DNA of 64,000 nt from assembly GCA_002699025.1 (NCBI GenBank), contig PABA01000182.1, positions 1-64,000 on the forward strand, given 5' to 3'. The notes beneath the pieces are model-generated. The model was not told the DNA's origin. It ran no database searches and worked only from the letters and a program-made list of their open reading frames with translations. Below are positions 28,186 to 41,593 of the stretch, in pieces; the first letter of the stretch is position 1; each line of letters starts with the position of its first letter. Made by a program: the position numbers and the translations under genes. Source of the DNA: Sandaracinus sp. (lineage in GTDB: Bacteria; Myxococcota_A; Polyangia; Polyangiales; Houyiibacteriaceae).

Positions 28186-29487
28186 TCAGAGGAGCATGGC
28201 GAGGGGGGCTTCGAGGAGCTTCTGCAGGGCGGCGAGCCACTCGGCCCCCACGGCACCGTCGACCACCCGGTGGTCGCAGCTGAGCGTGAGCTTCATGCGC
28301 TTGCCCGGGCGCACCTCGCCCTCCTCGACGACCACCGCGTCGCGGAGCGCGCCCACGGCGAGGAGCGCGCCCTCCGGCGGATTGATCACCGCGGCGAACT
28401 CCTCGATGCCGTACATGCCGAGGTTCGAGATGCTGAAGGTGCCGTTCTGCATCTCCTCGGGCTTCAGCTTCTTGTCGCGGGCCCGCCCAGCGAGCTCCTT
28501 CACCTCGCGCGAGATCGCGAGCACGCCCTTGCGGTCCGCGTCGCGCACGACGGGCGTGACCAGCCCCTCGGGCACGGCCACGGCCACCGACACGTCGACG
28601 ACCTGGTGGTAATGGATCTCGCCGTCCATCCAGCTCGCGTTCGCCGCCGGCACCTTCCGCAGGGCGAGCGCCGCCGCCTTGATGACGAGGTCGTTGAAGC
28701 TGACCTTCTCGCCGTCCAACGCGGCGTTCATCTGCTTGCGGGCGGCGACCAGCGGCGCCGCGTCCACGTCGATGGTCAGGTAGAAGTGCGGGACGTTCTG
28801 CTTCGACTCGGTGAGCCGCCGCGCGATCGCCTTGCGCATCTGGCTCGCCTTCTCGACGCGCGGAGGCTGGCGTACCCAGCCGCCCTCGGAGCCCTGCGCG
28901 CCGGCCGCCGCCGCGCCGCCGCTCTCGAGCCACTCGTCGAGGTCGCGCTTGACGATGCGCCCGTGCGGACCGGAGCCCGGCACCTGCGAGAGGTCCACGC
29001 CCTCCTCGCGCGCCAACCGCCGCACCAGCGGCGAGGCGAAGACGCGCCCATCCGCGCGAGGCTGGGCGGGGGGCTTCGCCTGGGAGGTGCCCGCGGCCTT
29101 CGAAGCGCCCTCGGCCTCCGCGCCGCCGGCCTGCTTCGACGCGTCGGCCTGCGCGGAGTCGTCCGAATCGCCTCCGTCCGCGCCGCCGGAGTCCGCGCCG
29201 CCCGCGCTCCGCGCCTCCGCCTCGGCGATGAGGTCGGCGATGTCCTCGCCCTCCTCGCCGATGATCGCCACGGGCACGTCCGGCGCGAGGGTCTCGCCCT
29301 CGGGCACGAGGATCTTCAGGAGCACGCCGCGGTCGAAGGAGCGGAACTCCATGGTCGCCTTGTCGGTCTCGACCTCGGCGAGCAGGTCATCGACCTCGAC
29401 CTTCTCCCCTTCCTTCTTCACCCACTCGACGAGCGTCCCCTCCTCCATGGTCGGGGAGAGCTTCGGCAGTCCGACGATCTTGGCCAT
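28186..29487 (-). CDS. pdhC: Pyruvate dehydrogenase E2, dihydrolipoamide acetyltransferase
   Basis: A 433-residue protein with the standard order of parts: one lipoyl domain at the N-terminus (lipoylated lysine K43 in ETDKATMEF), an Ala/Gly/Ser-rich linker, a peripheral subunit-binding domain (FASPLVRRLAREEG...GPHGRIVKRDL) and the acetyltransferase core ending in CDHRVVDG (H406, D410). It transfers the acetyl group from lipoate to CoA and forms the core of the complex. It is the last gene of the pdhA-pdhB-pdhC operon, with a 36-bp gap after pdhB. The E3 subunit gene is not adjacent. Confidence 0.95.
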   Translation of the reverse strand: MAKIVGLPKLSPTMEEGTLVEWVKKEGEKVEVDDLLAEVETDKATMEFRSFDRGVLLKILVPEGETLAPDVPVAIIGEEGEDIADLIAEAEARSAGGADSGGADGGDSDDSAQADASKQAGGAEAEGASKAAGTSQAKPPAQPRADGRVFASPLVRRLAREEGVDLSQVPGSGPHGRIVKRDLDEWLESGGAAAAGAQGSEGGWVRQPPRVEKASQMRKAIARRLTESKQNVPHFYLTIDVDAAPLVAARKQMNAALDGEKVSFNDLVIKAAALALRKVPAANASWMDGEIHYHQVVDVSVAVAVPEGLVTPVVRDADRKGVLAISREVKELAGRARDKKLKPEEMQNGTFSISNLGMYGIEEFAAVINPPEGALLAVGALRDAVVVEEGEVRPGKRMKLTLSCDHRVVDGAVGAEWLAALQKLLEAPLAMLL

Positions 29488-29523
29488 CGCTTGCTTCCTG
29501 GCTGGGGGTTCGGCCGTGGCCGT

Positions 29524-30510
29524 TCAGAGGTAGGCGACCTGGCGCACGGCGTCGACGATGCGGTCGACGGTCGGCAGCACGAGGTCCTCGAGGTTCGTGG
29601 CGTAGGGCATGGGCACGTCGAGCCCGGCGACCCGCGCGATCGGCGCGTCGAGCCAATCGAAGGCGTTCCACTGGATCTGGTCGACGATCTCCGCGCCCGG
29701 CCCGCCGTGGGGCCAGTGCTCGTGGACGATCACGCAGCGCTTCGTCTTCTTCACGCTCTCGACCATCGTCTCGACGTCGAGCGGCCGCACCGTGCGCGGG
29801 TCCACGATCTCGCACTCGAGGCCGTGCTCCTTCGCGAGCACCTCGGCCGCCTCGAGCGCCGTGTAGTAGGGGCGCCCCCAGGCGACGATGGTGCAGCCGT
29901 CGCCCTCGCGGCCGACGCGCGCCTTGCCGAAGGGGATCAGCTCGTCCTCGCCCTCGTCGGGGACCTCGCCCTTCACGTTGTAGAGCGTCTCCCCCTCGAG
30001 GAAGACGACCGGGTTGTCGTCGCGGATCGCCGTCTTCAGCAGCCCCTTCGCGTCGCGCGGGGTCGAGGGCATGGCCACGAAGAGCCCGGGCACGTTCGTG
30101 TAGAAGGGGTCGACCGAGTGGCTGTGCTGCGAGGCGACCTGCTTGGCGGCGCCGTTCGGGCCGCGGAAGACGATCGGGCACTTCACCGTCCCGCCGCTCA
30201 TCTGGTGGACCTTGGCCGCGTTGCTGAGGATCTGGTCGAAGGCGACGAAGCTGAAGTTCCAGGTCATGAACTCGATGACCGGCCTCAGCCCCGTCATGGC
30301 CGCGCCCACGCCGATGCCGGCGAAGCCCGCCTCCGCGATGGGCGTGTCGATGACCCGCTTCTCGCCGAAGCGCGAGAGCAGCCCCTCGCTGACCTTGTAG
30401 GCGCCCTGGTAGTGGCCGACCTCCTCGCCCATGAGGAAGACGCGCTCGTCGCGCTCCATCTCCTCGAGCATCGCCTCGCGGAGCGCCTCGCGGTATCGGA
30501 TCTCACGCAT
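29524..30510 (-). CDS. pdhB: Pyruvate dehydrogenase E1 beta subunit
   Basis: A 328-residue protein beginning MREIRYREALREAM, matching the E1 beta/transketolase pyrimidine-binding part, with FLMGEEVGHYQGAYKVS, DTPIAEAGFAGIGVGAAM and a C-terminal transketolase domain (VEIVDPRT-type segment, IVHEHWPHGGPGAE). Together with PdhA it decarboxylates pyruvate. The ATG at 30510 has GGAGG upstream and overlaps the pdhA stop by eight bases, so they are coupled. The longer frame to 30537 is rejected on that ground. Confidence 0.95.
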   Translation of the reverse strand: MREIRYREALREAMLEEMERDERVFLMGEEVGHYQGAYKVSEGLLSRFGEKRVIDTPIAEAGFAGIGVGAAMTGLRPVIEFMTWNFSFVAFDQILSNAAKVHQMSGGTVKCPIVFRGPNGAAKQVASQHSHSVDPFYTNVPGLFVAMPSTPRDAKGLLKTAIRDDNPVVFLEGETLYNVKGEVPDEGEDELIPFGKARVGREGDGCTIVAWGRPYYTALEAAEVLAKEHGLECEIVDPRTVRPLDVETMVESVKKTKRCVIVHEHWPHGGPGAEIVDQIQWNAFDWLDAPIARVAGLDVPMPYATNLEDLVLPTVDRIVDAVRQVAYL

Positions 30511-31507
30511 CGCTCGCCTCCTGGGCGTCGACCTCACCGAGGGCGAAGGAGGGCGCGAGCACCGTGCTCCACATGACCTCCTCCTTGGCCGGCTCCGTCT
30601 CGCCGGCGAACTTCACGGCTTCGTCGATCTCCGCCTCGATCTCCTCCTCGAGCGCGTCGAGCTCCTCGGCCTTCACGCCGGCCTCCTCGAGGCGCCCGCG
30701 GACGATCACCAGCGGGTCCTTCTTCTTGCGCTCCTCGAGCTCGGAGCGGCTCCGGTACTTCGCCGGGTCGCTCATGGAGTGACCGCGGAAGCGGTAGGTC
30801 TCGATCTCGATGAAGGTCGGGCCCTCGCCCTTCCGGGCGCGGTCGACGGCCTGCTGGACCCGCTCCTTCACGACGCTCGGGTCGTGACCCTGGAAGCGGT
30901 CGCCGGCCATGCCGTAGCCCTGCGCCTTCTTCGTGAGGTCATCGAGGGGCGAGGTCCGCTCCATGGGCGTGCCCATGGCGTACTGGTTGTTCTCGCAGAT
31001 GAAGACGATGGGGAGCTTCCAGAGGCCGGCGAGGGAGAGGCCCTCGTGGAAGCCGCCGATGTTCGTCGCGCCCTCGCCGAAGAAGCAGACGGTCACCTCG
31101 CCGCTGCCCTCGTACTTCGACTTGAAGGCCGCGCCGGCGGCGACCGCGACGTGCCCCCCGACGATGGCCCAGCCCCCGTAGAAGCCGTTCTTCACGTCGA
31201 AGAAGTGCATGGAGCCGCCGAGGCCGCGCGAGCAGCCGGCGTCCTTGCCGAAGAGCTCGGCCATGGCCGCCTTCGGCTCCATGCCGAGCGCCAGGGCGAT
31301 GCCGTGGTCGCGGTAGGTCTGGAAGACGTAGTCGCCGTCCTTCAGGGTCTCCGCCACCCCCACCGCGATGGCCTCCTGCCCGATGTAGAGGTGCAGGAAG
31401 CCGCCGATCTTCCCCATCGCGTAGGCGCGGGCCGACTCTTCTTCGAAGCGCCGGATGGTGAACATGGTGCGGTACTGGCTGCGCAGCTCGTCGACTCCGG
31501 ATGCCAC
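30503..31507 (-). CDS. pdhA: Pyruvate dehydrogenase E1 alpha subunit
   Basis: A 334-residue protein from the GTG at 31507, which has GGGAG upstream. Motifs follow the family: MFTIRRFEEES at the N-terminus, YRDHG, then the thiamine diphosphate site from GEGATN to ENN, and a phosphorylation-loop-like region (RGHSMSDP). It binds thiamine diphosphate and performs the decarboxylation step with PdhB. A longer in-frame ATG at 31663 would add about 52 low-complexity residues that cover leader stem-loops and is rejected. First gene of the operon. Confidence 0.95.
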   Translation of the reverse strand: MASGVDELRSQYRTMFTIRRFEEESARAYAMGKIGGFLHLYIGQEAIAVGVAETLKDGDYVFQTYRDHGIALALGMEPKAAMAELFGKDAGCSRGLGGSMHFFDVKNGFYGGWAIVGGHVAVAAGAAFKSKYEGSGEVTVCFFGEGATNIGGFHEGLSLAGLWKLPIVFICENNQYAMGTPMERTSPLDDLTKKAQGYGMAGDRFQGHDPSVVKERVQQAVDRARKGEGPTFIEIETYRFRGHSMSDPAKYRSRSELEERKKKDPLVIVRGRLEEAGVKAEELDALEEEIEAEIDEAVKFAGETEPAKEEVMWSTVLAPSFALGEVDAQEASDA

Positions 31508-31532
31508 TCGTCGTCTCCCTTCGAGGTGCTCT

Positions 31533-31568
31533 GGGGCGGTTGCCCCGTGGCTCTGGGGCAGAGGCCCC
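31533..31568 (-). promoter_or_regulatory. Two tandem GGGGC/GCCCC stem-loops in the pdhA leader
   Basis: Two copies of a 22-bp unit each hold a five-base-pair GGGGC-N4-GCCCC hairpin (31533-31546 and 31555-31568), ending about 26 bases before the pdhA start. Their position suggests control of translation or transcript processing, but only the structure potential is seen. Confidence 0.35.
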
Positions 31569-31671
31569 GTGGCGGTGCATGGTGAGACCGCGCCCCCCGC
31601 CTTGCCGAGCGAGGCGGGACGATAGGCGGCGTCCCCCAGCCCCGCAAGGATTTCGTGACGCATGAGAGAGA

Positions 31672-31952: not shown

Positions 31953-34900
31953 TCAGATCCCGAAGTAGTTCGAGATGCCGTACTGCGCCTGGAGCTGGAT
32001 GAGGTTCTCGAGGAAGCTCTCCTGCTCCTGCAGCTCGATGCGCGCCGCCTCGATCTCGGCCGGCGTGCCGGAGCCGCCCTCGAGCTCGTTCACCCGAGCC
32101 TGCAGCGCGATGAGGCGCGACAGGAGCTGGAAGCCGAGCTGCTCCTCCTCGAGGTTGTAGGAGAGGCGGGGCCGGACCTTCACCGCCACGTACGGCGTGT
32201 GGAGGCGCTCCGAGTTGTACACGACGTAGGTCGCGTCCTCGAGCGTGTTGCAACCGTCGTCCACGCCCGGGTCCACCACGTTGTGGCTCGGGTCGATGGC
32301 CTCACCCAGGGCGCAGGCGGGCGAGCCGTCCGGCTGCACGTCCGGGATGTCGTGGCCCGTGCCCTCGCCGAGGCGGAACACGATCAGGCGCTGCTCGAAG
32401 CTCGAGTCGTAGAAGACCGGAAACTGTGCCAGGGCGAGGATGGTCGCCCAGTTCCGCAGCACGGTGTTGGTCGTGCCCTCGATGGCGGGCTCCGGGTAGA
32501 CCAGGTCACGCTCCGGCTCACACGGGGTTGCAAGGCGACCACGCTGGCACTCACCGAGGCCGAGACCCCGGTAGAAGGCCATGTTCACCAGCTCGTCCTC
32601 ATCGTCCACGCGCGGGGCGAACCAGCGCGCGTCGTCGATGGCGATGCCACCGAAGACCTCCGTCATCGGGACGGCGAAGAGGTCGTAGTAGTTGATGAAG
32701 TAGCGCTCATCGATGGTGAAGTTCAGACCCCAGTCACGAATCGCGAGGGCGAAGAGGGCGTAGAACTTGTCCCAGAAGACACCGCTCTTCTCCGCTCGGA
32801 AGAAGCCCTGGTGGCCGTCCTGGAACTCGGTCCACATGCCGAAGCCCTGACCCGGCTCCATCACCATGTCGGCGCCCGGCATGTCCATCTCCTCCCCGAG
32901 GAAGGTGTAGGCGTTGCGCTCGGCGTCGAACTGGTAGGAGCCCTCCTGCGGGAGGTTGATGAGCTCGATGAGCCAGTGCATCGAGTCCACCGAGGCCGAC
33001 CACTGGTCGTCGAAGCCGAGGGGACCGCTGTTATCACCCGAGTTCGCTCCGAAGCCCGGCTCGAAGAAGAGCCGGAAGAAGAGGTGCTGGTAGATCTTCG
33101 CGGCGTCGACGACCGAGCCGAAGCTCACCGCCGTGCGGGGACCGCTGCGGCGGAAGCGCCGGTAGTAGTTCGAGGCGTAGCCCTCGTACCAGTTGCGGCG
33201 GTAGTGGTCGATGGCCTCCTGGAAGGACTCGCCCGCGTCAAAGGCCGAGCACCAGGAGATGTCGTTCAGGCGCTCGTCACCGCAGAACTGGTAGCGAACC
33301 GGCCAGAAGTCGCGCTCGCCGTCTCCGTCGACGTCGTTGTTGTAGGCGACGCCATCGTAATAGTCCCGCATGTCCTCGTCGAAGTTCGAGCAGATGCAGT
33401 TCCGGTCGCCGTCGCAGGGCTCGGGCAGGCGGGTGTAGCGCGGGTGGCGCACGCAGCGCTGCGAGATGGGCTGACCCTCCGCGAGCGCAGCCGAGCCGGC
33501 CTGGAAGGGGCAGTCCGTGTCGACGTTGCAGCTCTCACCGCCCGCGTAGGTGGTCATCCACCGACGGCCGGTGTTCGCGCTGTCGAGGAGCGGGTTGAAG
33601 AGCGGGTCGACGTTCTCGACCCGCGGGTCGCCCTCGTAGGCTTCGACCTTGTCGAAGTAGTTCCAGATGGTGGCCGCCACGTCGTACTTGCCGAGGCCGT
33701 ACACGTCCGAGCGGTCGCCGTTGTAGTCCATGATGGAGCCCGTCATGTAGTTGTGGGCACCACGGCGCGCGCGCTCATTCCGGACTTCGCGAAGGTCGGC
33801 GTAGTACTGCTCGAGCTCGTCGGCCTCGACGAAGTCGCTGCCATCGAGATCGTAGTCGTCGATTCGGGGCAGCTCCAAGCCCTCGTTGAGGACGAGGTTG
33901 AAGTAGCCCTCACCGTAGTTGTTGCGGTCGAAGCTGCCGCCGAAGTTGTGGCGGAGGCCGACGCTGTGGCCCACCTCGTGGTGCTGGACGGCCTTCATCT
34001 GCATCTGCTGCAGACGAATGGACGCCTCACCGAGCGGGCGGCCGCGGAAGGCCTCGGCCCAGTACTCCCAGTACCGGCTGCGGAGGAAGCTCCGCGGGTC
34101 GGTCAGGTTCATGAAGTCGTAGCCGAGCATGCCGGCGCGCTGCTGGATCTCCCGATCCCGGCCGATCTCGCGGACCATGTTGTTCCCGCGGAAGGGCGAG
34201 ATGCGGTCGAGGACGTCCTCGTCCATCACGCGCTGGCCGGGATCCACATCCGTCGTGGCCAGGTTGGTGTTGGCGAAGTGCGCGTTCATGGCCTGGGACC
34301 CGAGGGCCTCCATCATCTGCGACTCGAAGGACGTGCCCTCGAGGTTGCGCAGGCGATCCTGGAAGATGTTGAAGCGCGCGTCCTCGCCGCGGAGCGTCTC
34401 GATCTTGGGAAGACTCTCTTCCACCCGGTCGAACGCCATGGCAGCCCGGAGGTCACCCACCGGCAGGGCCGGACGACCGAAGTCGTCCGTGGTGAAGCCG
34501 TCGGAGCCCGAGGGCGCCGTCTGGATCGGGAGCTCGGAGCGCCCCTCCACGGCCTCGAAGTAGTCGCGGAAGTTCTCGCCACCGAGCCAACGCTCGGCCG
34601 CGCCCTCTTCACCCGGCGCGCAGCCCTCGTCGGACGTGCAGCGGATGACGGGGAACCACTCGGTGGCCACGAAGGCCATGTTCTCGCCGACGATGCCGGC
34701 GTAGTTCGCGTCGGCCGTGATGAGCTCGCCGCTCGTGGGATCCGCGCGGAGCTCGGAGACGCCTCCGAAGCGGGTGCCGATCTGGTCGATGTAGTTGAAG
34801 AACTGGTAGCGGATGTCGCCCTGCTGCTGCCAGGCCACCGCGTCGCCGTTCTCGTCGGTCACGGCGTCGCAATGCGTGCCCGGCTCGGTGCGCCACCAGT

Positions 34901-36566
34901 CGCAGGCGTTCGTCTGGAGGAAGAACATGCACTCCTCACCCTGGAACTCCCAGCGGTAGGCGTCCGGCATGGGGTACTCGTCGTAGGACGAGGGGTTGGC
35001 CGGCTCGTCCCAGCCCGCCGTGTTCACGATCTGGCAGTCGTAGGGCTCGGCCACGCCCATCGCCTCCCACTCGGAGGGGGCCATGAACGGGTTGTACTTG
35101 CCGGCGCAGGTGCCGTCCGGGCCCACGTCGGGCGAGCCCTCGAAGCAGTAGGCGGTCGGGTTGTCGGTCTGCGGCGTCATGCGCACCGAGGCGTAGTCCG
35201 GAATGGTGCGGTCCTGGACCGCGCGCCAGCCGCGCATGAAGGCCTCGTTCCAGTTGCCCACCGTCTCGAAGGCGGTCTTCACGAGGTGCTTCGGGAAGCC
35301 GTCGTTGAGGTGGTAGGTGACCGGGCGGAGGTCACGCTCGCGGAGAGGCACGGTGCACCGGCGAGCGGCGCGGTCGCAGACCGAGCCATCGGCGCCGGGG
35401 GTGTCCGGGTAGAGGCCGTTGCACTCCCAATCCGCGCGGCACGTCGTGTCCGTGAGCGAGTTCCGGAAGAAGTTGTGGCGCGGCCGGTAGAACGTCATGA
35501 AGTCGGTCTCGCCGTAGTCGGACGTCAGACCGCCGTCGCAGATGTTCCGCTCGAGGTCGCAGTAGCCACCCGAGGCGCAGTCCGCGTCGCTCGAGCAGCG
35601 CTCGCGAAGGCTCTCCGGATCCTGACCGCCGCGCACGTAGGTGCGCTGGTAGGTGCGGAAGAGACCGAAGCGGTCGAACTGCTGGTGCGACTGGGTCGCC
35701 GCCGCGTACTCGTGGTTGGGCGGCACGCGGAGGAAGGCCGTGCGCACCGGCACCGACACGGTCTGACAGATGCTGTTCGAGCCGATGAGGAGGCAGTTCC
35801 CGCCCGGCGAGAACATCGTCATCGTGGTGAACGACATGTAGTGGACCGTGTCCGCCATCTCGGCGGGCCACTCGTCGGCGAAGCGGTACTCCGGGTCCTC
35901 GGCGACGCGCACGAACTGCGGCGCGTAGCTCTCCGGGAAGTCCGGGTGCGAGCCCTCTTCCTGGATGAAGGCCGCCGACTCGTGCTGCCAGCTGCTGCCG
36001 AAGTCGACCCAGTCGGTGAGGTAGGCGAAGGACTGGGCGTGGTTCATCGACCAGTCGACGCGCATGAACTCGCGCTCGTACCAGCGACGGTCCGACGTGT
36101 TCTCGACGAGCACGTTGGTGACCTCACCGGTGAGCGCGCTGTACTCGCGCCGGATGTCGACGTGGTCCTCGATGGCGAAGGCCGCGAAGGGCTGACCCCG
36201 GAAGGTCGGGTCCCGGCCGTCGTCGTTGCCGCCGTCGATGAGCTCGTAGCTCCGGTAGGCGTAGAGGAAGTCCTCGTCGACGACCCACCGGATCTTGCCC
36301 ATCGTGGCCGACTGGCCGCTGTCGAGGGCGAGGTCCGTGAAGGCGCTGCCGCCGGAGAACATGTAGAGAGAGGCGCCGGAGCCCGCGAGGGTGGCGTCGC
36401 CATCGGCGTCGACCACGCTCTGGAGCGTCCACCACTCACCCTCGAAGATGTTCTTCGCGACGAGGTTGGTCTGGACCCGGTTGATCGTGTCGCCCTCCTG
36501 GTTGCAGCCGACGATGGCGAAGGCTGCGGCGGCCAGGATGAGGCTCTTTAGGTAACGGAAGCGCAT
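31953..36566 (-). CDS. Giant zinc-dependent metzincin-type lipoprotein, copy A
   Basis: A 1537-residue protein from the ATG at 36566 (AGGG five bases upstream). A lipoprotein signal ends in AAFAIVGC. The metalloprotease site is HEVGHSVGLRH (zinc ligands H863, H867, H873; catalytic E864), followed by a SIMDY Met-turn (M946), the arrangement of metzincins and of large HExxHxxGxxH proteases found in Bacteroidota and myxobacteria. Small Cys-rich insertions occur (CSSDADC..GGYC). It shares long segments with the gene upstream, including INRVQTNLVAKNIFEGEWW and the C-terminal LQxQYG tail. It probably cleaves proteins outside the inner membrane. The start is 80 bp after the upstream stop. Confidence 0.88.
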   Translation of the reverse strand: MRFRYLKSLILAAAAFAIVGCNQEGDTINRVQTNLVAKNIFEGEWWTLQSVVDADGDATLAGSGASLYMFSGGSAFTDLALDSGQSATMGKIRWVVDEDFLYAYRSYELIDGGNDDGRDPTFRGQPFAAFAIEDHVDIRREYSALTGEVTNVLVENTSDRRWYEREFMRVDWSMNHAQSFAYLTDWVDFGSSWQHESAAFIQEEGSHPDFPESYAPQFVRVAEDPEYRFADEWPAEMADTVHYMSFTTMTMFSPGGNCLLIGSNSICQTVSVPVRTAFLRVPPNHEYAAATQSHQQFDRFGLFRTYQRTYVRGGQDPESLRERCSSDADCASGGYCDLERNICDGGLTSDYGETDFMTFYRPRHNFFRNSLTDTTCRADWECNGLYPDTPGADGSVCDRAARRCTVPLRERDLRPVTYHLNDGFPKHLVKTAFETVGNWNEAFMRGWRAVQDRTIPDYASVRMTPQTDNPTAYCFEGSPDVGPDGTCAGKYNPFMAPSEWEAMGVAEPYDCQIVNTAGWDEPANPSSYDEYPMPDAYRWEFQGEECMFFLQTNACDWWRTEPGTHCDAVTDENGDAVAWQQQGDIRYQFFNYIDQIGTRFGGVSELRADPTSGELITADANYAGIVGENMAFVATEWFPVIRCTSDEGCAPGEEGAAERWLGGENFRDYFEAVEGRSELPIQTAPSGSDGFTTDDFGRPALPVGDLRAAMAFDRVEESLPKIETLRGEDARFNIFQDRLRNLEGTSFESQMMEALGSQAMNAHFANTNLATTDVDPGQRVMDEDVLDRISPFRGNNMVREIGRDREIQQRAGMLGYDFMNLTDPRSFLRSRYWEYWAEAFRGRPLGEASIRLQQMQMKAVQHHEVGHSVGLRHNFGGSFDRNNYGEGYFNLVLNEGLELPRIDDYDLDGSDFVEADELEQYYADLREVRNERARRGAHNYMTGSIMDYNGDRSDVYGLGKYDVAATIWNYFDKVEAYEGDPRVENVDPLFNPLLDSANTGRRWMTTYAGGESCNVDTDCPFQAGSAALAEGQPISQRCVRHPRYTRLPEPCDGDRNCICSNFDEDMRDYYDGVAYNNDVDGDGERDFWPVRYQFCGDERLNDISWCSAFDAGESFQEAIDHYRRNWYEGYASNYYRRFRRSGPRTAVSFGSVVDAAKIYQHLFFRLFFEPGFGANSGDNSGPLGFDDQWSASVDSMHWLIELINLPQEGSYQFDAERNAYTFLGEEMDMPGADMVMEPGQGFGMWTEFQDGHQGFFRAEKSGVFWDKFYALFALAIRDWGLNFTIDERYFINYYDLFAVPMTEVFGGIAIDDARWFAPRVDDEDELVNMAFYRGLGLGECQRGRLATPCEPERDLVYPEPAIEGTTNTVLRNWATILALAQFPVFYDSSFEQRLIVFRLGEGTGHDIPDVQPDGSPACALGEAIDPSHNVVDPGVDDGCNTLEDATYVVYNSERLHTPYVAVKVRPRLSYNLEEEQLGFQLLSRLIALQARVNELEGGSGTPAEIEAARIELQEQESFLENLIQLQAQYGISNYFGI

Positions 36567-36646
36567 GGTGACCCTGAAGCTGGGGGTGACCTGATTGAAG
36601 GTTCGGAGAGAAGCGTCGTGTTCGTGCGTCATGGTCGTTCTCTCCA

Positions 36647-39600
36647 TCAGAAGCCCAGGTAGCTACGGACGCCGTACTGCTGCTGCAGCTGGACGAGCTG
36701 GAAGAAGAACGACTCCTGGTCGCGGAGCCAGCGGTCGAGCCGCTCGATCTCGTCGTCGGCGCGGGCCTCGCTGCCGGGCAGCGTGTAGCCGAGCTCGGCG
36801 ATGCGGTCCTGCTGGTCGGGCGTGAGGTTGTCCGTGGACAGCGCGTCCCCCCCGAAGTCGCCGCGGTAGGTGCGGACCGCCTCGAAGAGGAACTGGGTCT
36901 CCTCGGCGCGGCGCACCATCTCGAAGCCGATGGACTGCTGATTGGGGACGTTCACGCTCGGCTCGACCTGCCAGGCGATGAAGCTCTTGCCGTAGCGCTC
37001 GCTGAAGAAGCGAACGTAGTCGGCCTCCTCGATGGTCGTCACGCCGACCTCGTACTCCACGTCGGACGCGGAGGGCTCGAAGCAGGCGCCGTTGCCCTCG
37101 ACGCAGACGAAGAGCTGGTTCTGGAAGGCCGTGTCCCAGAAGACCGGGAACTCGGAGAGGGAGAGCGCGGCGCCGAGGAAGCTCAGCGTCACGTTCGTGC
37201 CCGAGTTGACGATGGGCAGCCCCTCGAAGTTCTCCTCCGGGGAGGGCCGGCAGGTGCCCGGCTCGCTGCAGTCGCCGCGGTAGAAGTCCATGTAGACGAG
37301 GCGCGGGTCGTTGCAGCGCGGGAACTCGCCCGAGCCACACTCGAGACGGGGCGCGAGCGCCTCCGGCTCCTCGAGGATCATGCCCTGGAACATCTGCTGG
37401 AGCTCGACCGGGAAGAGGTCGTAGTAGTTGGTCCAGAAGGGCACGTCGCGGGTGTAGCTGCTCGTGTAGCCACGCTCGGTGAGCATCTGCATCGTGAACC
37501 ACTTCTCGTAGAAGGTTCCGATGAGCTCGATGCGCTGGATGCCCGTGAGGCCGGCCTGGTACTCGGAGCTCGGGTAGCGGGCCATGCCGAGCGGCAGCGC
37601 GAGCTGCGCGCCGGGCGTGTCGGCGTCGTTGTTGTAGCGCTCGTAGCGCTGCCAGCCCTCGTCGAAGCGGTAGGCACCGATGCCCGGCTGCGCGAGGATC
37701 TTGCCGTAGAAGTTCAGCGTGTCGGCCGTCGCCATGAAGTGGTCGTTGAAGCCGAACGGCCCGGTCGTGTTCCGGTACTCCGGGTCCTGCTGGTAGCGGA
37801 AGAGGAGGTCCTGGAACATCGACTGGAGGATGTTGAACTGCCGGCCGATCAGGCGGTTGAAGAGGTAACCGCCGAGGCTGAAGCCCGCGCGGTAGCGCCG
37901 GAAGTTCGTGAAGATGTACTGCCGGTCGTACTGCTCGGTGAGGTTCCGAACGATCTCGCGGTAGCTATCACCCTCGTCGAAGCGGTGGCACTTGGCGTCG
38001 GTCCCCACGCGGTCGTCGGTGCAGAAGGCGTACTCGACGGGAACGTAGGGGGGAGCCTCGCCAGCGCCCTCGAGCATGGCCCGGGCGTCCTGGTCGAAGT
38101 TCGAGCAGATGTTGCCGAAGGCGCCCCCGTTCGGGTGCGGCTGGCAGGTCTGCGTGAGGCCCGTGCTCATGTTGGCCGGGAGCAGCTCGCCGGCCATCGC
38201 GCCGCCGGCCGCGTAGGGGCAGTCGGCGTCGACGTTGCAGTCCTGGCCGCCCTGGTACCACTTGGCCCAGACGCGCGGCGTGTTCGCCGGGTTGATGTCG
38301 TCGAGCGAGTTGCCGGTCGACGTGTTGTCGTAGACCTCCACGACGTCGGCGTAGGCGAAGCTGATCGCCATGTTGTCGTAGGAGCCGACGCCCTGGGAGC
38401 CGCCGGTGGCGCGCTGATACCACTGCGCCGTGTACTCCATGATCGAGGAGTCCATGAAGCGGTCGATGCCCGCCAGCTCGCGACGCTCCTTGGCGGCGTC
38501 GTAGGCGTCCTCGAAGGCCTGGATCTCGTCGGCGCTGAGCCCGTTGGTGCCGTCCGTGTCGAAGTCGGCGGGATCGGGCAGCGGGATGCGCTCGTCGATC
38601 AGGTAGTAGTTCGGGTCGTACTGGTCGACGTCCGCGCTCGCCGCGAAGCTGTGGCGGAGGCCGAGGCAGTGGCCCATCTCGTGGAGCTGCGTCTGGTAGT
38701 AAAGCAGCTGGTTGAGGGCGATCTCGAGGCGGGCCCGCGGCCAGTCACGGTGCCGGTTCACGAACTCGAGGACCGAGTTGTCCACGAACTCGTTCGGCAT
38801 CATCACGTTCGCCTTGCCGATCCGCGTCTCCATCTCGTTCTGGTAGCGGAGCTGGTCGAAGGCGCTGGTGCGGAAGGGCGACACGCGGTCGAGGATGTTC
38901 TCGTTGATGTCGTCCACGCCGCGCCCCTCGGGGAGCACGTCGAGGACGGCCATCATCAGCGTCTCGCGGTTGGCCATGAGGCGCCGCTCGATGTCCGTGC
39001 CGGCCAGGGTCCGCCGGCGGTCGCTGAAGGTGTTGGCGCGACCCTCGGGCCCGGCCAGGCGCTGGGCACGCTGAGCGAAGCGCTCCATCTGGTTCCGGAT
39101 CATCGAGTCGTCGACGAGCTCCGGGGCGCGGGTCGCCACCGAGAAGTCCTCCCGCGGCGGGGCCGGGTTCTCGATGTTGTTCAGGTTCTCGAGGTAGCTC
39201 CGGACGTCCTCACCGATGAGGAAGTCGCGGTCCGTGATGCGACCGTTGATGAGGTCGTAGGCCTGGAGGGCCGAGGTCCGGTAGCCGTCGAGGGCCGGGC
39301 CGCCGATGTTGGCGTCGCCCGTGATGAGCTCGCCCGTGACGGGGTCACCACGGAGCGTGGCGACGCCGAGGAAGGCCGTGCCCGGCTGGTCGACGTAGCT
39401 GAGGTACTTGTAGCGGAGGTCACCGCGCTCCTGGCACTCCATGCCGTCCGTGGTGCCGCCGTTCTCGTCGATGCTGAGGCGGTTGCAGGTGTTCGGGCGC
39501 AGGACGACGACACACTCGCTGCCGACCATGCGGGCGTTGAACCACTGGTAGAAGTCCTCGTCGCCGAGGTCCGGCGCGTTGAGGTCCGGCCGGGCGCCGT

Positions 39601-41011
39601 CGGGCACCTCGACGTGGCAGTCGAAGGGGTTCGTCGCCGTGCTCTCGGAGGGCGGGACGAAGGGATCGTAGCCCCCGGCGCAGGTCGGGTTGAGGACGTC
39701 ACCCGTGTCCGGGTCCGTGATGCAGTAGCAGTAGCCGTCCGGGTTCTCGGTCTGGCAGGAGACCTCGGGGTACTCGGGGAGCGGCTCGCCGCGGAGGTTG
39801 CGGACGAGGCGCATGTAGACCTCGTTCCAGCGGCTGACCAGGTCGTAGCTCGGCTCGACGAGGTGGGCCGGGAGCTCCGGGGTCGTGTACCAGACGACCT
39901 GGCGGACGCGGCGGTCGGCGTAGGGCACCGGGTTGCCGGCGTCGTCGACCCAGTCGTACCAGATGTTCTGGCGGTTGGCGCTGTAGTTCAGGAAGTCGGT
40001 CTGACCGAAGGCCGGGTCGTCGGCCGCCGAGCTGCGGTCGTAGGTGTTGCGCTCGAGGCGGAAGTAGCCGGCGCGCTCGAAGCGGGTGTCGTTCCAGTTC
40101 TGGGCGACGTACTCGCGGCTGTCCGAGACCTTGAGGAAGCTGTTGCGGACGTAGACGGCGGTCGTCACGCAGTTCGGCGCGTCCGCGTAGGGGCTGATGC
40201 ACCAGTTGATGGGCGCGCCCGTGAACGGGTCGGGCACGTTGCCCGGGGAGAGGAGCTCCTGGGTGACGAAGCTGAAGTGGTAGAGCTCACCCTGCTCGTA
40301 GTCGGCGGCCCAGTCGCGCTCGCCCTCCGAGCAGCCCTCGCTCGTGTCGTCGAGACCGGCGCAGGGCATGAAATGGAACTGGGGGCGCCAGCTGTCCGGG
40401 AAGTCCGAGGAGCCCTGGATGAAGAGGTCCGCCGGCTCGCGGTTGTAGAAGCCGATCACCTCGTAGAGGTTGGCGATCTGGCCGTAGTAGCCGGGGAGGT
40501 GGTTCTTCGACCAGTCGACGCGCATGTAGTCGCGCTCGTACCAGCGGCGGTCGCTCGTGTTCTCCACGAGCACGTTCCGCTCCTCGCCGGTCTGCGCGTT
40601 GTAGTCGCGGCGGATGTCGAAGTGGCTGTCGATGGCGAAGGCGGCCACGGGGTGCGTGACCGACTCGCCCGGGGTCGCCTCGGCGGCGTCTTCCCCGTTG
40701 ATGCCTTCGAAGAGCTCGTAGTCCCGGTAGGCGTAGATCATGTCCTCGTCGATGACCCAGCGGACGCGGGGCATCACGCCGAGGTCGGAGCCGACGAAGT
40801 CGATGGCGGCGTCACCCGGGTACGTCCCGATACCGGCGGCCTCGTAGTCCACGTCGATGACGACGCGGCTGTAGTACCAGCTGCCGGTGAACAGACCCTT
40901 GTCCACCACGTTCACGCCCACGCGGTTGATCGCGGGCGTCTCGTCGACACACGAGGCCGTCATGGCCGTCAGTGCCGCGAGAGCAATCCAGGAAAGATAC
41001 GAGCGCTTCAT
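36647..41011 (-). CDS. Giant zinc-dependent metzincin-type lipoprotein, copy B
   Basis: A 1454-residue paralogue of the next gene. The signal peptide starts MKRSYLSWIALAALTAM and ends in TASC. The active site is HEMGHCLGLRH (H777, H781, H787; E778) with Met-turn SIMEY (M858). It keeps NTSDRRWYERDYMRVDWSKN and the LVQLQQQYGVRSYLGF ending seen in copy A. The extra Cys inside the zinc motif (HC in place of HS) is unusual and could affect redox behaviour. The ATG at 41011 has GGAGG ten bases upstream. A sigma-54 promoter lies about 300 bp ahead. Expression of both genes from it is inferred. Confidence 0.88.
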   Translation of the reverse strand: MKRSYLSWIALAALTAMTASCVDETPAINRVGVNVVDKGLFTGSWYYSRVVIDVDYEAAGIGTYPGDAAIDFVGSDLGVMPRVRWVIDEDMIYAYRDYELFEGINGEDAAEATPGESVTHPVAAFAIDSHFDIRRDYNAQTGEERNVLVENTSDRRWYERDYMRVDWSKNHLPGYYGQIANLYEVIGFYNREPADLFIQGSSDFPDSWRPQFHFMPCAGLDDTSEGCSEGERDWAADYEQGELYHFSFVTQELLSPGNVPDPFTGAPINWCISPYADAPNCVTTAVYVRNSFLKVSDSREYVAQNWNDTRFERAGYFRLERNTYDRSSAADDPAFGQTDFLNYSANRQNIWYDWVDDAGNPVPYADRRVRQVVWYTTPELPAHLVEPSYDLVSRWNEVYMRLVRNLRGEPLPEYPEVSCQTENPDGYCYCITDPDTGDVLNPTCAGGYDPFVPPSESTATNPFDCHVEVPDGARPDLNAPDLGDEDFYQWFNARMVGSECVVVLRPNTCNRLSIDENGGTTDGMECQERGDLRYKYLSYVDQPGTAFLGVATLRGDPVTGELITGDANIGGPALDGYRTSALQAYDLINGRITDRDFLIGEDVRSYLENLNNIENPAPPREDFSVATRAPELVDDSMIRNQMERFAQRAQRLAGPEGRANTFSDRRRTLAGTDIERRLMANRETLMMAVLDVLPEGRGVDDINENILDRVSPFRTSAFDQLRYQNEMETRIGKANVMMPNEFVDNSVLEFVNRHRDWPRARLEIALNQLLYYQTQLHEMGHCLGLRHSFAASADVDQYDPNYYLIDERIPLPDPADFDTDGTNGLSADEIQAFEDAYDAAKERRELAGIDRFMDSSIMEYTAQWYQRATGGSQGVGSYDNMAISFAYADVVEVYDNTSTGNSLDDINPANTPRVWAKWYQGGQDCNVDADCPYAAGGAMAGELLPANMSTGLTQTCQPHPNGGAFGNICSNFDQDARAMLEGAGEAPPYVPVEYAFCTDDRVGTDAKCHRFDEGDSYREIVRNLTEQYDRQYIFTNFRRYRAGFSLGGYLFNRLIGRQFNILQSMFQDLLFRYQQDPEYRNTTGPFGFNDHFMATADTLNFYGKILAQPGIGAYRFDEGWQRYERYNNDADTPGAQLALPLGMARYPSSEYQAGLTGIQRIELIGTFYEKWFTMQMLTERGYTSSYTRDVPFWTNYYDLFPVELQQMFQGMILEEPEALAPRLECGSGEFPRCNDPRLVYMDFYRGDCSEPGTCRPSPEENFEGLPIVNSGTNVTLSFLGAALSLSEFPVFWDTAFQNQLFVCVEGNGACFEPSASDVEYEVGVTTIEEADYVRFFSERYGKSFIAWQVEPSVNVPNQQSIGFEMVRRAEETQFLFEAVRTYRGDFGGDALSTDNLTPDQQDRIAELGYTLPGSEARADDEIERLDRWLRDQESFFFQLVQLQQQYGVRSYLGF

Positions 41012-41089
41012 GTCGATGAGGCCTCCGGGAAGCCGTCCGCTTCCGAAATCCCAAGGGCGCCGGGCGTGCCCGGTCGCGTTGTCGTGTGC

Positions 41090-41168
41090 CCCGAGGCGTT
41101 TGCCTGAGGCGGGTTGCCTGAGGCGGGTTGCCGTGAGGCGGGGTGCCTGTGGCGGGGTGCCTGTGGCG
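41090..41168. repeat. 15-16 bp GGCGGGTTGCCTGAG repeat in the metalloprotease leader
   Basis: Five to six imperfect copies lie between the sigma-54 promoter and the start of copy B, so they would be transcribed as part of a long 5' leader. Confidence 0.75.
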
Positions 41169-41593
41169 ATGTTCCGGTTCGTTCGTGAGTGAGTGAGTGC
41201 TGGGAGCGGGCTGGAATGACTTCCGGCGGCGATGCGTCCCCTCTGAGGGGACCCCGGCGTCAAAGCACGCACGGTCGAGGGCGGAGGGATACCGCCCGAC
41301 GCCCCGTATCGCAACCCGTGTGCCACCGGGGTGACGATCGATCCGAACCAGTCGGAATCGCTATGGAATCACCCGAATGGCGCGAATTGCGGCCAAATTG
41401 GGGGGTGCGACAGGGTGTCACGGGAAGGCCGTGGAAACGGAGATCGGGGCGTTTCGTGGTGGGATCGAGGCCGTAAGAGATTTGACGGGCGGCCCGAGCC
41501 TACGGGGATCACAGGGTTTTTGGAGGTGCGGGGAGCGCCGCAGGGCAGGCCGAGCGGATCGTTTCAGGGAGAGCGTGGAGGGGGTGTGCGGCT
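41169..41593. other. Gap between metalloprotease and esterase genes
   Basis: Apart from the repeat and the sigma-54 promoter, this stretch is comparatively AT-rich between about 41330 and 41530. It contains GGAATC twice at an 11-bp spacing (41354 and 41365), on the promoter's upstream side. No coding frame with recognisable features is seen. The esterase promoter must also lie here. Confidence 0.45.
41310..41326 (-). promoter_or_regulatory. Sigma-54 (-24/-12) promoter for the metalloprotease pair
   Basis: On the minus strand the sequence is TGGCAC-ACGGG-TTGCG: six of six -24 bases, the required five-base spacer and the TTGC -12 core. This is a near-consensus RpoN promoter. It would start transcription close to 41299, giving a leader of about 290 bases before copy B. 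Confidence 0.7.

Follow-up and report, generated by a model that had tools for sequence, protein, structure and literature searches.

How is the transcription of a tandem pair of genes for very large lipoproteins with metzincin motifs controlled? The question is raised by a 64,000-nt stretch of Sandaracinus sp. DNA (contig PABA01000182.1, here referred to as the window), for which a preliminary description had proposed that a sigma-54 (RpoN) promoter drives the pair. Here, the two genes, the DNA upstream of them and their relatives among the Polyangiales were analyzed in order to answer it.

Gene pair and encoded proteins

The two genes are located on the minus strand at the following positions:

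36647..41011, minus strand: gene 1 (ATG at 41011, stop at 36647), encoding a 1454 aa lipoprotein with the metzincin motif HEMGHCLGLRH and SIMEY
31953..36566, minus strand: gene 2 (ATG at 36566, stop at 31953), encoding a lipoprotein of about 1537 aa with the metzincin motif HEVGHSVGLRH and SIMDY

The earlier description of tandem metzincin-motif lipoproteins of about 1,450-1,540 residues was borne out, the two proteins being 31% identical; the open reading frames given there extend further 5′ than the likely start codons of both genes. Gene 1 and gene 2 are separated by 80 bp and are presumably co-transcribed as one operon. A search for a promoter module belonging to gene 2 itself found none. 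Both proteins are cysteine-rich and start with a lipoprotein signal peptide, and a location in the outer envelope would be expected for both. HExxHxxGLRH followed downstream by a Met-turn is found in both, the zinc motif is present in most of the homologues read, and on the basis of these motifs both products are probably zinc-dependent proteases. Between the zinc helix and the Met-turn both proteins contain a DxDxDG-type loop (DFDTDGTNGLSADE, DYDLDGSDFVEADE) resembling a calcium-binding loop, and the gene 2 protein additionally has a weak match to Myxo_Cys_RPT. Following the pair on the same strand, look-alikes of pyruvate dehydrogenase E1-alpha (confirmed by PF00676), E1-beta and E2 are encoded at 28186-31663; these genes probably form a separate operon.

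The profile PF16313 (DUF4953, Met-zincin) matched gene 1 with 34.9 bits, above the gathering cut-off of 24.2, and gene 2 with 22.3 bits by hmmscan, which is below the cut-off, and with 26.3 bits in the genome search. The alignments were limited to the surroundings of the zinc motif, covering 22-25 of the 316 profile positions and not the full-length domain. All 20 gene-1 orthologues matched PF16313 as well (E ≤ 0.01). For the equivalog TIGR03952 (metzin_BF0631) the scores were 15.1 and 11.9 bits compared with the 208.1 bits required. The proteins resemble the Met-zincin family PF16313 and the Bacteroides lipoprotein metalloproteinase of the BF0631 type (TIGR03952) in HExxHxxGLRH, the SIMxY Met-turn and the lipoprotein signal, but differ from them in their far larger size, their richness in cysteine and the few profile positions aligned. 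Structure models built for two halves were of low confidence at the active site and in the catalytic part, and a PDB fold search with these low-confidence models yielded no meaningful match; a PDB search by sequence found no relative of the proteins. Literature searches on DUF4953 and on such lipoproteins in myxobacteria returned nothing.

Conserved sigma-54 promoter sequence upstream of gene 1

The promoter region and the 5′ leader of gene 1 contain the following features:

41311..41325, minus strand: sigma-54 promoter TGGCACACGGGTTGC (-24/-12), matching TGGCAC-N5-TTGC exactly with 0 mismatches
41299, minus strand: predicted transcription start, about 12 bases after the GC of the -12 element according to standard sigma-54 geometry, giving a leader of about 288 nt
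41093..41168, minus strand: a 14-bp unit in about 5 tandem copies, situated in the gene 1 leader and belonging to an expansion of about 150 bp

The sequence TGGCACACGGGTTGC is the sole exact match in the window, the 20 other matches listed having 2 mismatches each. Throughout the genome (G000, 9.24 Mb in 238 contigs), 15 exact occurrences of TGGCAC-N5-TTGC were counted compared with 5 of the reversed pattern. By inspection, many of the other exact matches are located closely upstream of correctly oriented genes, several of which encode lipoproteins, so that the pattern appears to recognize genuine promoters in this genome.

A perfect TGGCAC-N5-TTGC precedes gene 1 in seven of the seven closest orthologues, i.e. 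in the window and in six relatives, together from five genera, although these seven are mutually related and do not represent seven independent events. The six relatives, which belong to genera g6, g7, g9 and g11, encode proteins with 63-72% identity to the window protein. When the seven sequences were anchored at the promoter, the ten consensus bases showed an identity of 1.00, compared with 0.29 at positions -60 to -5 and 0.31 at positions -140 to -61. One relative, G089, has two whole gene-1/gene-2 pairs (L150, i.e. G089:C192, and L025, i.e. G089:C591), and the second gene-1 copy, like the first, is preceded by an exact sigma-54 promoter. The distance between promoter and start codon is 159-166 bp in five relatives, 119 bp in G089 and 314 bp in the window; the long distance in the window is due to the leader expansion, which is found in the window genome only and is missing in the six nearest relatives. 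The genes upstream of the promoter vary among the genomes, being esterase, oxidoreductase, dehydratase-like or GAF/GGDEF-like by sequence, and therefore promoter and dyads (see below) belong to the pair. An rpoN gene was found in 26 of 27 genomes checked, the window genome among them; the gene may be essential, as is stated for Myxococcus xanthus (PMC12316311). With the promoter kept in every one of these orthologues despite diverged flanks, with rpoN present, and with the arrangement of promoter and paralogue pair found again in related genomes, the proposal that a sigma-54 promoter drives the pair is strongly supported at the level of sequence comparison.

Dyads on both sides of the promoter

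Two related dyads flank the promoter:

41472..41487, minus strand: candidate upstream activator site, the imperfect dyad CGTCAAATCTCTTACG, 162 bp upstream of where the -24 box begins
41258..41273, minus strand: related downstream dyad CGTGCGTGCTTTGACG, at about +26 from the predicted transcription start

An upstream dyad of the form CGT..N10..ACG is present 150-162 bp before the promoter in each of the seven orthologues, and in the orthologues the downstream dyad follows the -24 box at about +52. The two elements of the window were independently paired as inverted-repeat partners by a repeat search. At the second of the two G089 gene-1 copies both dyads read CGTGCG..CTAACG, which suggests two sites for one protein. 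Compared with the family consensus CGTYAG-N4-CTRACG described in the next section, the upstream dyad of the window has 2 mismatches, while a gene-1 dyad of G089 matches exactly. No other conserved element was found upstream of the promoter in the seven orthologues, and a search of Rfam found no element. GGAATC repeated with an 11-bp period, which the preliminary description had put forward as a possible activator site, occurs as a pair of copies in the window genome and in 0 of the 6 nearest relatives, and was rejected for this lack of conservation. The dyad at 150-162 bp, which recurs before paralogues, is the better candidate.

The same module upstream of distant paralogues

The dyad consensus CGTYAG-N4-CTRACG was recognized upstream of distant paralogues with 24-31% protein identity. 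In 34 kb of upstream DNA of the family, 6 exact and 10 one-mismatch dyads were found, compared with 0 and 7, respectively, in 561 kb of downstream sequence. Among 87 family upstream regions, 20 contain the dyad with no more than 1 mismatch (mean of 0.55 and maximum of 2 in shuffles) and 27 contain the module of a sigma-54-like box and a dyad with no more than 2 mismatches (mean of 0.35 and maximum of 2 in shuffles); as the consensus was derived from some of these same regions, the two tests that follow are cleaner. First, forty paralogues selected solely for homology of the protein have 7 one-mismatch and 6 two-mismatch dyads, against 0 in reversed sequence. Secondly, a strict gene-blind scan of 317 genomes gave 7 matches, 4 of them before family members, and 1 control match. 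A gene-blind scan of 115 genomes with a loose module found it before a family member in 6 (G006, G094, G020, G012, G030 and G054), with 4 control matches overall. Due to the fact that family genes are a small part of a genome, the enrichment in the gene-blind scans is large. In 12 genomes, the exact dyads found elsewhere are mostly located within coding sequence, and their number is near the chance expectation.

The dyad of the paralogues is located 53-116 bp ahead of the sigma-54-like promoter, and an exact dyad is found at the third paralogue in the window genome. Many paralogues are without the module, and in some the -24 box is weak, GC or GA standing in place of GG. These comparisons suggest that the module extends beyond the pair to other lipoprotein paralogues as an order-level regulon, which the preliminary description had missed.

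The surroundings of the third paralogue were also recorded. In the Sandaracinus-like genomes G012 and G030 (L195 and L174; around G012:C1:7301718-7301910) one dyad region is common to two divergent sigma-54-like promoters, of which one belongs to the third paralogue and the other to a gene whose 439 aa product is predicted to be secreted and has no Pfam match. In two genomes (L104:11186-11905, and L107) the third paralogue is followed by a gene for an LTXXQ (Spy/CpxP-like) periplasmic protein, with PF07813 matched in L104; this neighbor is a possible hint at envelope stress.

Distribution and evolution

A search with the gene-1 protein in 115 genomes of the order found a homologue in 89, and the gene-1/gene-2 tandem pair is present in many. 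Neither promoter nor dyad could be recognized at the orthologues of the pair from genus g2 or from families f3, f4, f6, f8 and f9. Loss of rpoN was rejected as the reason, because the gene is nearly universal in these lineages; the promoter is missing from these more distant orthologues in spite of it, and control of this operon is therefore clade-specific. The seven gene-1 orthologues with the module fall into a single clade of a tree calculated from 59 proteins. The module precedes other paralogues in families f1, f3, f5, f6 and f12, and on the same tree its distribution takes 9 changes, at least 7 of which are forced by well-supported branches. Compared with 500 shuffles, this distribution is more clustered. 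Accordingly, the operon of the pair came under the module, or stayed under it, in part of family f1 only.

Proposed mechanism and alternative explanations

In sigma-54 systems an enhancer-binding protein bound at its site acts on the closed complex formed at the -24/-12 promoter and remodels it. Applied to the present locus, RNA polymerase with sigma-54 would transcribe the pair operon from the promoter at 41311-41325, and one enhancer-binding protein would bind the CGTYAG-N4-CTRACG dyad about 160 bp upstream and switch transcription on. The same protein would probably also occupy the related dyad in the leader, at about +26, and from there, speculatively, it might restrict expression or maintain a loop. 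Very probably this regulator also controls other lipoprotein paralogues across the order, the pair being one member of its regulon. From the promoter and the dyads observed, their conservation and their recurrence before paralogues, we infer with good confidence that the pair operon depends on RpoN and one enhancer-binding protein, within a regulon centred on large metzincin lipoproteins. A bolder version, in which a single dedicated enhancer-binding protein serves an order-wide regulon consisting almost wholly of giant metzincin lipoproteins and the promoter of the pair lies inside a loop between two activator sites, is regarded as tentative and rather doubtful. If it were true, a looped promoter between matching sites would be an unusual architecture, and activation and self-limitation would be brought about by the same protein.

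The alternative which survives best is that the pair is sigma-54 controlled while its likeness to the paralogue promoters is convergent, different enhancer-binding proteins having similar sites. It is consistent with the spacing of 150-162 bp at the pair compared with 53-116 bp at the paralogues, with the tree, which requires the module to have been gained or lost at least 7-9 times, and with the many enhancer-binding proteins that the genomes encode. However, dyad consensus and half-site sequence are the same in the two groups, and the exact agreement of the G089 gene-1 dyad with the family consensus speaks for a common regulator, so that convergence appears unlikely.

Less probable still is a real sigma-54 promoter whose dyad is bound by a separate repressor or nucleoid protein, with the activator acting at other, unrecognized sites. 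The dyad at about +26 does sit where a repressor could block transcription, and the upstream dyad of the pair is slightly past the range usual for activators; against this, 27 of the 34 dyad-bearing genes have a sigma-54-like box at limited spacing, and the DNA upstream of the promoter in the seven orthologues holds no further conserved element at which the activator might act. That the promoter match is due to chance and that transcription of the operon starts from a different promoter was conceivable at the outset, when the consensus match stood alone and 15 exact genome matches compared with 5 for the reversed control, but is strongly disfavored by the footprint of a promoter invariant among diverged flanks with positioned dyads and is now very improbable.

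The regulator which the preferred reading, i.e. RpoN with one enhancer-binding protein, calls for was also sought among the neighbors of the paralogues. At least 39 regions of the window genome match an enhancer-binding protein. One of them (L049:2478-3629; PF00158 and HTH_8), in which HAFTGA replaces GAFTGA, precedes the third paralogue by about 2.6 kb. In G041 this protein is best matched (68%) by one encoded on contig C404, where no lipoprotein-family match was present among the matches listed; because of this, and of the many such proteins in the genome, adjacency to the paralogue makes it a weak lead only. Scans for ELFG/FTGA motifs in the flanks of other paralogues gave only two more, both unconvincing.

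Comparison with known systems

Sigma-54 together with an enhancer-binding protein is a well-known type of system, while the regulon and its target family appear to be undescribed: in the literature searched, no description of the lipoprotein family or of the CGTYAG-N4-CTRACG site was found. Site and target gene set provide a handle for the identification of the regulator and its signal. Moreover, a large and expanded lipoprotein family of the Polyangiales becomes linked to inducible control, and its role becomes directly testable.

Sites of enhancer-binding proteins are usually located 80-150 bp from the promoter (PMC7910581), and the spacing found here agrees with this range, which is slightly exceeded at the pair (150-162 bp). 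The nearest comparison is the Nla28 regulon of Myxococcus xanthus (PMC9765219, PMC7910581), which shares with the present system a promoter of the form TGGCACG-N4-TTGC, activator half-sites upstream of it and, as predicted for the genes described here, several operons under one activator with targets including envelope functions. Nla28 recognizes direct repeats of CT[C/G]CG[C/G]AG (PMC9765219), whereas the site described here is a CGTYAG-N4-CTRACG dyad that, by inspection, does not correspond to the Nla28 half-site. In contrast to the Nla28 regulon, the predicted targets belong to a single large lipoprotein family in the Polyangiales.
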